Source: Mucidula mucida (lineage: Eukaryota > Basidiomycota > Agaricomycetes > Agaricales > Physalacriaceae). From it: a DNA stretch of 64,000 bases. Location of the stretch: contig JADNYV010000011.1 of the NCBI GenBank assembly GCA_015501055.1, positions 62,001 to 126,000 on the forward strand. The letters are read 5' to 3'. The notes beneath the pieces were generated by a model that saw only the letters and a list, made by a program, of their open reading frames with translations, searched no databases and was not told where the DNA came from. Positions 3,086-45,397 of this stretch are shown here, piece by piece (the stretch's first letter is position 1; the number at the start of each line of letters is the position of its first letter). A program made the position numbers and the translations under genes.

Positions 3086-3284
3086 CTAATGCCGTCCGAT
3101 CGTACGCTGACTCAAATCACCACACTACGGTACCAGATGCGCCCCCTACGTTTCGTCAGAAGCTGACAAACAATAACGAAGGAACGAGTGTACTACTCGA
3201 TCCGCACATAAGGAGCTGGTGTTTACACATAGTGCAACGCAAGGTTTTGTATTTTCTGCACTACAACAACGAAAAGATACACCT

Positions 3285-31646: not shown

Positions 31647-31665
31647 TCTTCTAAGTTCTAGAAAT
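31647..31665 (+). repeat. 19-bp direct repeat, left copy (target duplication?)
   Basis: tcttctaagttctagaaat, repeated exactly at 31999-32017, directly flanking the foldback element. Confidence 0.85.
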
Positions 31666-31998
31666 TAGGGTGGTGAAGTAAACCCTAGGTTTTGATACAC
31701 CTCGGGTTTACTGCGGTAAGTAACGGTATTGATACAGTATTAAAACTGTCAAGGGCTGGTAGGTAGGTTTCGATACCGACACGTGCCTACTACACGTGCC
31801 GGCGCGGGAGCGCTCAGAGGGCCTTGGGGTGGCGGGATCAAGGCGGGATGAGGGCGGCAGGGCGTTGCGCCACATCACGTGTCTGAAGCACGTGCCGGTA
31901 TCGAAACCGTTACTAACGGTTTCAAAACCTGAGCCTACTGGGCGGTCGGTATCAATACCGTTAGGAACACCCCTGGGAAGTTTACTGCGCCACCCTAA
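31666..31998. mobile_element. Foldback MITE-like element, 333 bp
   Basis: The ends are inverted repeats (left tagggtggtgaagtaaac; the right end reads ttagggtggcgcagtaaac on the other strand). Inside is a second inverted pair, gtttcgataccgacacgtgc (about 31768-31787) against gtttcgataccggcacgtgc read from about 31889-31908 on the other strand, so most of the element can fold into a hairpin. No coding capacity. Identical 19-bp direct repeats flank it, longer than usual DNA-transposon duplications, so the superfamily is left open. Confidence 0.75.
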
Positions 31999-32017
31999 TC
32001 TTCTAAGTTCTAGAAAT
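31999..32017 (+). repeat. 19-bp direct repeat, right copy
   Basis: Exact copy of 31647-31665 on the far side of the foldback element. Confidence 0.85.
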
Positions 32018-32065: not shown

Positions 32066-32150
32066 TCCGACTTGCCTGGTTCGAACAGGCGACATTCAGA
32101 TGACAGGTAACCTTTACAGTCTGACGCTCTTCCAACTGAGCTAAAGTCGG
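32066..32150 (-). tRNA. tRNA-Tyr (GUA) with intron
   Basis: Minus-strand cloverleaf: acceptor stem CCGACTT/AAGTCGG with discriminator A, D arm TAGCTCAGTTGGAAGAGC, anticodon loop CTGTAAA, T arm CCTGTTCGAACCAGG. About 11 extra nt follow the base after the anticodon, the standard place for a nuclear tRNA intron; Tyr-GUA tRNAs commonly have one. The foldback element ends about 50 bp away. Confidence 0.95.
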
Positions 32151-40317: not shown

Positions 40318-41248
40318 ATGTTCTCGCTCAACGTTGCCCTCATCGCCGCCGTCTTGTCTGTTGCCAATGTGGTCTCTGCTGACGCCCCGGCGACGTGCAG
40401 TGCCCATGGTTTCGACTTGACGTCCGACGGTGGAAAGAGCCCCTGCTACATCGCGTCTCTGATGGTCGGGGGAGGATGTGAGCCATTCAGTTCTGAGCGC
40501 TAACTTCGACGCTGACACAATGCTCAAGATATGCCGGAGGACTCGCCGTATCCGCGCCTCAGTGGACAGACTGAGTACGATATCCCCACGGGACGAAGCC
40601 GAGATCTGCGGTGCAACCCAGTCTTCTACACCTTGGTATCTGGATGCTCTGCGTGCCAGTCATAAGCAGCAATACTTGGCCCACGTAAGTGCTTCCCCCC
40701 GCCGTTATTATGCACGCTAAGGCACATTCAGATGGGATTCCTGGACCACGAACTGTGGCAACATTACTGGCGTCAAGTGAGCATCTTGATTCCGATTACG
40801 AGAGTTAACTACTGACCTATTATTCATAGGTATATCGCCGAAACGATGCCCTACGACACGGCACTCCCCAACTGGGTATTCACCGACCCAGTCGTCACTG
40901 GCGGTACTTTCAACTACACCGCTGCGAAGCTCGTGGGCGCATCCGGTAAGTGTGTGATATATCCGCAACTGATGGATACTCATAGAAATAGATGAGATCC
41001 CGGAGACAACGTTCAACGTCAATGGCGACTCCACCGGTAGCTCGACTGCCGCCACCTGCTCTAACAAAGCTGGTGCCATCGCTGGAGCTGCCGTAGGAAG
41101 CGCTGTCGGGGGTGCCCTTATCGGTGCTCTTATCATGTTCCTCTTGGGTAAAAAGTCCAAGAAGCTCTCTGCTGACCGTGGATCGATTCATTCCCATGAA
41201 TCCGAGGATACTATTGCCAGAGAGAAGAAAATTGCGAACCGCGCTTGA
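40318..41248 (+). CDS. Single-pass membrane protein, Cys-rich ectodomain
   Basis: Starts with a leader (MFSLNVALIAAVLSVANVVS), then a cysteine-bearing ectodomain with VFYTLVSGCSACQ and WTTNCGNITGV, N-glycosylation sites, one transmembrane segment with GxxxG-like spacing (GAIAGAAVGSAVGGALIGAL) and a basic cytoplasmic tail ending REKKIANRA. This layout is common in an uncharacterised basidiomycete family. Exons: 40318-about 40478, about 40531-40635, then pieces to 41248. The junction after SACQ is uncertain: the frame hits TAA, so a gtcata donor near 40662 joined to about 40731 is proposed. Confidence 0.7.
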
Positions 41249-41512: not shown

Positions 41513-42372
41513 CTAGGCAAGGTCTTTCTTTTCGTACATTTCCTCGTCAAAGAAAGTCGTTAACATGTTCGAGCGTTCTTGAGTCTCACGGCGCTCTGCA
41601 TTTCAACGTCAGCCTAAGACCCCGAACAATGAAGCTTTCCACTAACCTGGAAGGTCTGGATTAGCTTCCCTTGTGTACATTTCTTCATCGAAGAACGTGG
41701 TGAGCGTATTCGCCCGGCGCGCAACATCTGTAATTGAGACTTTAAATCAAGTGTAAAGAAGAGTAAGGCTTAGGACCAACCCGATTCAAGATCTTTCTTG
41801 GTGTACATCTCCTCATCAAAGAATGTTGTAAGCATGTCTGAACGACGTTCGACATCCGAAGCTACCAACGTGTTCAGCTGGAGGTTTTGCGAGTAGACGA
41901 ATGCGCATACCTGCTGAGTCTTCGTCGATATACATCTCCTCATCGAAAAACGTTGTGGGGTGTTGGAGCGGCGTTCAACGTCTGAAGCTGTCAGTGCATT
42001 CAGCTGAAATTTCGCGAACATCAGACCAAAAAGCACCCATACCTGCGGAGTCTTCGTCGGCATACATCTCCTCATCGAAGAAAGTGGTAAGTACGTTGGA
42101 ACTTGAGCGACGTCCGAGAGCAGAGTCTGACAAGAATTAGAACCGCAGCTTTGACTCAGAGCATAGCATAAACTGACCTGTGTCTTTCTTGGCGTACATC
42201 TCTTCGTCAAAGAAAGTCGTCAGCATGTTGGAACGCGCTGTGTGTGACTTGAGTCCTCTGATTAGAATGACTAGAACAGGGAGTGACTAGCCTTCCGGGA
42301 CACTGTCTTTCTTCGCATACATTTCCTCATCGAAGAAAGTTGTGAGCATGTTCGATCGACTGTTCGGTGCGC
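41513..42372 (-). repeat. Seven exon-encoded repeats of the LTTFFDEEMY unit
   Basis: Unit cores at about 42355-42312, 42235-42190, 42094-42053, 41971-41921, 41842-41791, 41711-41660 and 41569-41522. TTFFDEEMY is preserved in all seven (in unit 4 only in the +1 frame). Flanks vary: AKKD, AKKD, ADED, IDED, TKKD, TREA, EKKD. Confidence 0.9.
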
Positions 42373-42495
42373 CTAGTTACACGTCAGACGAACAAGTCGA
42401 CAAGAGAGTACGAGAAGATGCTAACCCAACGGAGCGGCGAAGGTCATAGATGCCGACAGGACAACGAAGGAGAGCGCAACAATGGAGGACTTCAT
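41513..42495 (-). CDS. Secreted precursor with seven tandem peptide repeats
   Basis: Eight exons: 42426-42495 (23-residue signal peptide, ending ASMTFAAPL), then one repeat per exon: 42304-42372, 42178-42255, 42043-42126, 41911-41987, 41781-41861, 41647-41727, 41513-41595. Each repeat has LTTFFDEEMY or a close variant; the first two read SNMLTTFFDEEMYAKKD. Four of the repeats follow RR (for example DVERRSDM) and four are followed by KK, matching Kex2-type processing sites. About 207 residues. Exon 5 is 77 nt, one base short, at a CCCC run in the SNTP region. Exon 2 may instead extend to 42292 with a GC donor. No homologous family was recognised; a secreted multi-copy peptide (RiPP-like, pheromone-like or wall peptide) is inferred. 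Confidence 0.78.
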
Positions 42496-45397
42496 ATCGA
42501 GAATGAGGGATTGGCTGTAGGCTGAATATGCGAGGTGTGAGAATACGAGGTGGAAGAAAAGTTGGATGGAAGAATACTGCTGATACCCACACCTTTTATA
42601 AGATGGGGTCCTCCCAGTTCTAGTCCCCGGTACCGAGTCGACTTGCCACGGGCGAGATGAACGGCTTGAAGCGGTGTGGCAATTAAACATAGCCCAAGCG
42701 GCAACTACTTTCGAATACGCATACAAGTGATTCGAGGCGCGAAATGACGAAGACAGCGCGGATCAGGGCGGTAGAGTTTCCATCTTGCTCCTGGGAACTG
42801 TGTAAAGGCGGTGCGTGGTATAATGGCATGGAGAAGGATGTGCGCCTATCCCGAAGTTTGAGATTGGGCTTACTATGATGAATATGGAGATTATACCGCG
42901 GGCGCGTATGTGTCCAGGAACGCCAGAACTACTTACAGATGACCGTGAAAATCCTGTGCTGCGCGCAAATAGATGATCACGACCATGTTAATGCACATAG
43001 AACTTTCAAATGTAACGGCGACCGAAGGCGATTACAAAAAATCTTCGCCCTGAACCGGAGGCTTGAGGGCACGGATAAAAAAAGATGGCACGCACCATGT
43101 ACCACCCGCGACGACGACCGGATTTTTCGGCGGACCTGGCGATTTCCGGTTAACGTTGAACGTTTTGATCTCCAGCGTACATACTATATGATGTTGCAAT
43201 ACTAAACGATGTGGTTCCCACTGAACTCAACAAAACAACAATTCTCGGTTATTTGATTCCCAGTTGCCGACGTTACCACGTCTATCAAGCTGCCAAACTC
43301 TACAACTTGTCAAGGCTCAACTAACTGACCATGCTCGGTCTGTCAAGACGTGCGCGGCCGTGTACGCTCAAACCGTGACTAGAGTCAGAGGATGGGCTGG
43401 TAAGGCCCCATCGGTCACTCTAACGCGTAAGAGTGCTTTCAATGATACAGAGAACAGCCTTCGATGTGCTCTCGTAATCCCGAATCCCGAGTCGCCAAGT
43501 CGGGAGTTTCTGCCATATTTTGAGAATGGAGGAGGTCGGTAATATCTTCGAATGGGAAATTGTATGACATAGTGCGGCTGCGCGATGACTCAAACGAAGA
43601 CTCGTCAACAGGTGTTGAGAGAACTTAGTACACTTTAACGATTACTGTTCGGAGCAGTTAGGATCATATCGATATCAAAGTAGAGCGAAAAGCGATACCC
43701 TATGGAGCGCTGAGAGATGCGGGGCGGGATCCTCTGACTCCGCGCTGAACGAGTATCGAGTCAAACTGGAGTTGCAGAAGAAACGCGATGTCAATGCGCG
43801 AGTTTGCCGCGGGAAACATTACCGCTCAGAAATTATGGCCGCATCTCCAAGAGGATATCTGCAAGGGCGTCTGACGGTCAGACCAGCGGAGAGGTGCATG
43901 TTGGGGTAGAGGACAGGTTACATCAAGGTTACATACACCTAACCCTAGGCCTAAGGCCTAGAATTACGGGCACGTGATGCGATCCGACCTACTTGCCGGC
44001 GAATTCCATGATATCTGGAGGAAGACCAGGTTTATTGTTCGGCGCTATCGTTCTCTTCCGTCTTACACAAGCGAAGGCCCTCCGTCGTTCATTCTGGTCC
44101 TGGTATCATCATGTATGCAACAGTCAGTTCAACTGTGGTGCCCTTTGGTGCCGTTCTACTGACTGACCCAAGTCAAGTCCTTCTCAGAATCAAAGGACAA
44201 CCTGCGGGACTATACTAGGAGGTTCAATCCCGTTTCCCTAGATACAAGGCCTAGGAGGACGCGTGAATTGGATCCACTCGGGACCAGTGTGAACTAACTC
44301 CACTCTTTACAGTATAGTATTCACAATCATGCGACTTAGCTTCTAATGGAAAATCTCCGACAATTCCTCTTTCGCAGAAATGGCTAACTCCGTCCGCGGC
44401 GCGTGGGGACGATGCTTCCAAGTTCCAATATCGCTTGACTGGCGGTGGTTGCAGTGACGTTATCCAGGCCTAGGAATCCGTTGTAGACTGGTATCGCTTA
44501 TGTCTCTAAGCTGACACCCTTCGAAGCGCTTCTCGTCTATACGCACTCGGTAATATCTCTCTGTCATCCAGTACATAGCGTGGAAATCATATTGGAGCTA
44601 TTTCTTCGCGAGCTCGAAACGCAAAATAGTGCCACAGTCGATCTGTCGGTCCAAGTCAGCGTGAGTACAGAGCTGCCAATACAGAATGCTGTTACATGCG
44701 CCTGTCAATATAGAGACGCGACTCCTCTCGTCTCTCGATGTTTGTGCCGAGGACACAGACTTGCGCCTCGCCGTTTGGATTCTCCTGGACTTACTGATGC
44801 ATGACAGTGCTGCGCTCTCCTGGATAGCGGTGTCGTATCGTTACTATCGCCACTGATCAAGCAGTAATCGAGTCTTGACATTCTTTAAGTAGTTGTGTAT
44901 GGGATTCATGCAATCATATCAAAGCTAGCCTTTGCAAGCACTCAATTAAACTTCTCCATGCAAATGTCGACGTCGAAGTACGATAGACAAAGGATCCTTA
45001 AAGTTGTCTCTCGACTCTCGCTGCCGACAGCTCGCATCAACCCCTGCAATAGATCGACTTGTCTCACGGTGCGCGGGTCTTGCTTCGCTTCCGCCCATTG
45101 TAGATGGAATTCGAAAGACCCAAGAGCTTTAAAGAAATACTGTACCGGCCTCACGCTCCACCACTCGGACCGCCCAGATGGCAACGGACTTTCTTGGAGC
45201 GCTGTTAGATTCGCACCCCACACACGAAACGGCGACGGATACCAAGAGAGCTGATCTAAAAACGTGCCAAAAGCCTCCGTTCGCATTTTTGGAAATCGGT
45301 CCGCAGCTGGACCTACATATTCTTAGCTGCACAGCGATGACCGAGTCTTCCATCTCTTTTCTCTTCCGCTTCCTCTCGCTGTTCATTCTTTCTTTCA
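42496..45397. other. Gene-poor stretch, 2.9 kb
   Basis: No supportable gene. Isolated frames of 60-119 codons on both strands cannot be joined into a family-like protein. A palindromic run cctaaccctaggcctaagg lies at about 43938. The left end must hold the promoter of the repeat-peptide gene. Confidence 0.45.

Follow-up and report, generated by a model that had tools for sequence, protein, structure and literature searches.

A probable KEX2-processed repeat protein with seven copies of an acidic nine-residue core in Mucidula mucida

A gene of the mushroom Mucidula mucida (Physalacriaceae) encodes a signal peptide followed by seven copies of the core TTFFDEEMY, one per exon. This raises the question of what such a precursor is for, and of whether it is cut into peptides at all. 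We analysed the gene within the window, i.e. the whole stretch of 64,000 nucleotides in which it lies. The precursor is quite probably a KEX2-processed repeat protein (KEP), whose linear acidic peptides, once released, would serve in signalling or biotic interaction. KEPs are a known class, but the TTFFDEEMY peptide itself looks new.

Gene structure and the frame of unit 4

The precursor gene occupies positions 42495-41513 of the minus strand, where eight exons encode a signal peptide and seven core copies. Exons 2-8 hold one unit apiece, and all seven units have the identical core TTFFDEEMY. The earlier note had described a secreted precursor with seven units. The signal peptide, the eight exons and the seven cores were all recovered, but unit 4 lies out of frame. 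The features are as follows.

42595..42600, minus strand: candidate TATA box (TATAAA), a consensus match only, first base 105 nt 5' of the start codon
42426..42495, minus strand: exon 1, with the start codon, the signal peptide MKSSIVALSFVVLSASMTFA, then APLG; phase 1 donor
42304..42372, minus strand: exon 2, unit 1 (SRSNMLTTFFDEEMYAKKD), 69 nt
42178..42237, minus strand: exon 3, unit 2 (TRSNMLTTFFDEEMYAKKD), 60 nt
42043..42126, minus strand: exon 4, unit 3 (GRRSSSNVLTTFFDEEMYADED), 84 nt
41911..41987, minus strand: exon 5, unit 4, 77 nt; frame broken upstream of the core, TTFFDEEMY intact in another frame
41862..41910, minus strand: intron 5, 49 nt; kept in the public gene model, which thereby restores the frame
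41781..41861, minus strand: exon 6, unit 5 (ERRSDMLTTFFDEEMYTKKD), 81 nt
41647..41727, minus strand: exon 7, unit 6 (ARRANTLTTFFDEEMYTRE), 81 nt
41513..41595, minus strand: exon 8, unit 7 (ERSNMLTTFFDEEMYEKKDLA) and the stop codon

Judged by its composition, MKSSIVALSFVVLSASMTFA in exon 1 reads as an ER signal peptide, and its hydrophobic stretch IVALSFVVLSAS has a mean Kyte-Doolittle value of 2.39. The seven introns are all short (49-66 nt). Since exon 1 is 70 nt long and the lengths of exons 2, 3, 4, 6 and 7 are divisible by three, introns 1-4, 6 and 7 are all of phase 1, and they enclose units that are symmetrical modules. For intron 5, phase 1 holds only relative to the frame of unit 4's own core and exon 6. 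The donor of exon 2 is uncertain: read by eye, the modelled GT could be replaced by a GC 12 nt further on (exon to 42292) with the frame kept. Units 1 and 2 read SNMLTTFFDEEMYAKKD, RR precedes units 3-6 and KK follows units 1, 2, 5 and 7, as previously noted.

When all eight exons are joined, three good units are followed by a shifted tail, and units 5-7 are lost. We considered an alternative acceptor that would rescue the core of unit 4 and rejected it: there is no AG between the nearest upstream stop and this core, so no canonical acceptor brings it into frame. The frame is restored by skipping exon 5, which joins six units in one open frame. It is also restored by keeping intron 5, since the two lengths add up to a multiple of three (77 + 49) with no stop in between. 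Six units would be usable only with exon 5 skipped or intron 5 kept. The stretch before the unit 4 core contains a one-base run, and a sequencing or assembly error may lie behind the frame break.

The locus corresponds to the M. mucida hypothetical protein CPB85DRAFT_1249737 (P0001; window 41513-42226, minus strand), which is, letter for letter, the window translation with intron 5 retained. This public model starts at a Met within unit 2 and has neither the signal peptide nor unit 1, so it could escape surveys that demand a signal peptide. Exons of 60-84 nt can defeat annotation, as happens at this locus.

Constraint on the repeated core

A degenerate DNA pattern for TFFDEEMY, allowing at most two mismatches, matched seven times in the window, each time exactly, and not once in 100 dinucleotide shuffles. 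With the same tolerance, an FFDEEMY pattern gave 19 matches in the 59,906,080-base assembly. The seven exact ones are all at the precursor locus; the remaining 12 lie elsewhere with two mismatches each, and a reversed control pattern gave six matches. Three viral contigs had one match each to the FFDEEMY pattern, which we took as chance.

TTFFDEEMY is identical in the seven units, yet its codons vary at eight of nine positions, the exception being ATG, for which no synonymous codon exists. The variable columns are third positions in every case (8/8), with at least 10 changes, all synonymous. The probability that all would be silent by chance is about 5e-8 (kappa 2) to 3e-7 (kappa 4), a crude figure that presumes independent unselected changes and ignores the tree relating the units. 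The core of unit 4 is as well kept as the others, with synonymous changes only. Since the core codons vary, and always synonymously, selection acts on the peptide itself, a constraint measured solely among the repeats of one gene. Around this fixed core, the linkers differ both in sequence and in length. The introns align poorly with each other (21 pairs, z 0.3 to 5.2, the highest for introns 4/5 and the next 3.8), and part of their similarity must stem from the shared splice-site ends. The units would thus be old copies held to one peptide rather than recent duplicates.

We searched for relatives of the precursor among about 5.8 billion annotated proteins, with queries of 175, 96 and 302 residues (1064, 127 and at least 7992 candidates scored, shared five-residue words being required). 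At E values up to 10, nothing was found except P0001, which is the locus itself. There were no paralogues in its own assembly, where protein and DNA matches are confined to the precursor locus, nor did three DNA stretches compared with the same assembly reveal a second allele. Pfam assigned no family to the precursor. Among PDB entries, only two distinct histidine acid phosphatase sequences came up (E 0.22), which we regard as chance. A single-sequence structure model of the public protein, retained intron included, has a mean pLDDT of 51.5 and a pTM of 0.18, and neither shows nor excludes a fold. The main texts of the literature searched do not mention TTFFDEEMY, and the core peptide looks undescribed.

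Predicted processing and its alternatives

With exon 5 skipped, the precursor has 175 residues, six units and no Cys. Its secreted part contains eight dibasic sites, against a mean of 3.5 in shuffled sequences (148 of 20000 shuffles reach eight). Each of the five linkers between the six in-frame cores has at least one such site, which was matched by 51 of 20000 shuffles. In-silico cutting at the dibasic sites followed by removal of basic ends produces core peptides of 23, 17, 26, 14, 23 and 19 residues. Tyr-ending peptides of about 14 residues, as once proposed, are not what these cuts predict. Tyr is separated from KK by a single residue (A, A, T or E), and the products would end in Tyr-Ala, Tyr-Thr or Tyr-Glu. 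Dibasic cutting alone turns only unit 5 of the six into a 14-mer, the other five giving 17-26 residues.

The secreted part also contains four lone Arg, each of them at the border of a core: in units 1, 2 and 7 the Arg precedes S-N-M-L, and in unit 6 it stands two residues past Tyr. If these are cut as well, under a rule of our choosing that catches all four (R before S, A or E), 14-mers arise from five of six cores. They are SNMLTTFFDEEMYA (twice), SDMLTTFFDEEMYT, ANTLTTFFDEEMYT and SNMLTTFFDEEMYE, with computed monoisotopic masses of 1697.695, 1728.690, 1681.718 and 1755.701 Da, respectively; the longer, dibasic-only form DTRSNMLTTFFDEEMYA would have 2069.871 Da. Three of the six in-frame units become 14-mers only by lone-Arg cutting. 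Unit 3 remains a 26-mer under either scheme because DED replaces KK, and units 3 and 4 both have DED where the other units have KK. Kex2 is reported to use KK to a lesser extent than KR and RR (PMC6339444), and some Coprinopsis KEP products made in Pichia are described as having apparently arisen at a single Arg (PMC9769878). The dipeptides that follow the eight dibasic sites are DT, DT, SS, SD, DL, AN, ET and DL. None of them is XA or XP, the STE13 signature of alpha-type-pheromone-like KEPs.

The earlier note had recognised no known mushroom family in this gene. Its architecture nevertheless fits the published definition of KEPs, a large class that includes proteins of mushrooms (PMC7329392, PMC6339444, PMC9769878). 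PMC7329392 asks for a signal peptide plus three or more repeats, each of 8 to 100 residues, bounded by KR, KK, RK or RR. Dibasic cuts made in silico on the exon-5-skipped model leave six core-bearing fragments of 14-26 residues, and the host has KEX2, a kexin gene being present in its assembly. KEPs are widespread in fungi: PMC7329392 predicts 7878 of them in 1345 of 1461 strains, 2560 being stand-alone. In Dikarya, yeast-like Basidiomycota excepted, peptides of 9-24 residues form the commonest class (PMC6339444).

PF01483 scored over the cut-off at two kexin loci of the assembly. They are identical at 3261 of 3299 aligned bases and are probably two alleles; the catalytic region of one matches yeast Kexin 1ot5 at 2.3e-71. 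This search found one kind of kexin, against the three kex2 genes reported for C. cinerea and other agaricomycetes (PMC9769878). According to the same paper, none of the kex knock-outs of C. cinerea lost its KEP peptides. Haplotype redundancy seems to affect part of the M. mucida assembly: the kexin pair lies on contigs C305/C340 (L013, L014), and UstYa matches look paired on contigs C1/C103 and C316/C230. The proposal of selection on a kexin-released peptide draws support from the synonymous-only core, the dibasic sites in five of five linkers and the kexin gene.

If the gene is transcribed and spliced around exon 5, the signal peptide would direct the precursor into the secretory pathway. 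Kexin would cut after KK and RR, and probably also after the lone Arg, which in units 1, 2 and 7 directly precedes the core region and in unit 6 lies two residues past Tyr. A KEX1-type carboxypeptidase may then trim the basic ends. Linear acidic peptides of the form [S/A][N/D]xLTTFFDEEMY[A/T/E], mostly of 14 residues, would be released outside the cell, their exact ends and linear form being predictions of this scheme.

It is quite unlikely that the protein is secreted and stays uncut, its acidic units jointly binding a metal, a wall polymer or a partner and its dibasic pairs being incidental. With a charge of about -17 at pH 7, the secreted part is strongly acidic, as in multivalent binders, and units 3 and 4 lack KK. 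However, dibasic sites are in excess and occur in every linker, the linkers vary in length and sequence around a fixed core, and the precursor has no Cys.

A different fate for cut units would be that of dikaritins, in which UstYa-type proteins cyclise a Tyr-containing core into a cyclic RiPP. The signal peptide, the repeats, the dibasic sites and the Tyr of every core would suit such a precursor, and the genome does encode UstYa (DUF3328), with at least 15 matching stretches. UstYa is needed for dikaritin cyclisation. Yet none of these 15 stretches is on the window's contig C61 (the counts being lower bounds), which makes a cyclic RiPP unlikely. Pfam scans of 29 window ORFs, taken from 161 stop-to-stop frames of at least 100 residues, found no UstYa, peptide-modifying enzyme or likely peptide-modifying oxidase. 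The families present were Tti2, amidase, VBS_C3G9, MRG, PLP decarboxylase, alpha/beta hydrolase, GDSL lipase, IGPS, mannosyltransferase, sugar transporter and rhodanese, with KIF21A below the cut-off. Of the 1680 Basidiomycota KEPs in PMC7329392, just 103 have DUF3328 genes close by (within 15 genes). Taken together, we consider the dikaritin explanation very improbable. On this evidence, the precursor gene stands alone.

Several other features of the window are worth recording. A convergent neighbour on the plus strand (40318-41248) looks by eye like a protein that is secreted or membrane-bound, having a transmembrane stretch and a basic tail, and its stop codon is 264 nt from that of the KEP gene. 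The sole tRNA that ARAGORN found in the window, a tRNA-Leu (anticodon taa; 32066-32150, minus strand), lies about 50 nt from a MITE-like insertion (31647-32017). The latter has 20-nt inverted ends (31664-31683 and 31980-31999, 90% complementary) with nested inverted repeats inside, and is flanked by a perfect 19-nt direct repeat (31647-31665 and 31999-32017).

A decaying gene, with the exon 5 frameshift as a mark of disuse, would account for the 77-nt exon that puts units 5-7 out of frame in the eight-exon join and for a locus found once in an assembly seemingly holding other genes twice, but it is made highly improbable by the other six units joining in one open frame, by seven cores (that of unit 4 included) with only synonymous changes, by the two splicing outcomes that restore the frame, and by the one-base run that makes a sequencing or assembly error possible.

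Relation to known systems and possible role

The KEP reading can be set against systems already described. Like the Agaricomycetes KEPs of PMC9769878 (Coprinopsis cinerea, Lentinula edodes with its 7-fold SGTGEASAADW, Pleurotus), the gene encodes a short secreted precursor with a signal peptide and near-identical peptides between dibasic sites. Unlike the Trp-ending (-AADW/-APSW) and pyro-Gln peptides of that paper, the M. mucida peptide is acidic, with Tyr next to its end, and its precursor has no XA or XP (STE13) after the dibasic sites. The M. mucida gene is laid out with one repeat per phase-1 exon. The main texts of PMC7329392 and PMC6339444 contain neither 'intron' nor 'exon'; in PMC9769878, 'intron' appears once, incidentally, and 'exon' never, and we found no discussion of this layout there. 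Rep1 of Ustilago maydis (PMC6339444, PMC7329392) is likewise a secreted basidiomycete precursor, from which Kex2 releases repeated peptides, as is predicted for our gene. The Rep1 peptides are described as water-repellent and 37 residues long, in contrast to about 14 predicted in M. mucida, where three residues of the nine-residue core are acidic.

Dikaritin precursors (ustiloxin, phomopsin, asperipin-2a) share with our gene the signal peptide, the dibasic-flanked repeats and the Tyr in the core, but no UstYa match was found on the M. mucida contig. The basidiomycete a-type mating pheromones also come from short peptide precursors in mushrooms; unlike these, the M. mucida gene has a signal peptide and repeats, and no Cys. 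A-type pheromones need a C-terminal CaaX box. We rejected this identity because a 175-residue precursor without Cys has no such box.

What the peptides would do can be approached from the pattern of constraint. The core combines acidic (D, E, E) with aromatic residues (F, F, Y); every residue is fixed, and the flanks are loose. An invariant core with free flanks is more in keeping with the ligand of a specific partner than with a surfactant or a structural repeat, in both of which conservative exchanges should be tolerated, or with a cationic antimicrobial, which the charge makes unlikely. Judged from the constraint, a ligand for a specific receptor or partner, in the fungus's own hyphae or in another organism, fits best. 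KEP peptides have been detected by mass spectrometry in C. cinerea, shiitake and two oyster mushrooms, those tested had no antibacterial activity, and their functions are described as largely unknown (PMC9769878). Six KEP knock-outs in C. cinerea are reported to have no visible phenotype (PMC9769878). Hence, even in species that produce KEP peptides, no role has been established for them.

These observations bear on how such genes are found and studied. A KEP with repeats spread over tiny exons can be missed when a survey takes annotated signal peptides as its starting point. At this locus, nine invariant residues with drifted codons provide an internal measure of constraint, and tell which peptide to synthesise and assay. 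A further reading, which we think rather unlikely, is that of a modular precursor tuned by splicing. As every repeat occupies an exon of its own, with borders in phase 1, the gene could gain, lose or skip repeats without harm to the frame, and the splicing of exon 5 may set the number and kind of peptides released. The core would then be an old, undescribed signal. Being old enough for wide synonymous drift, it would be expected, unannotated, in related Physalacriaceae.
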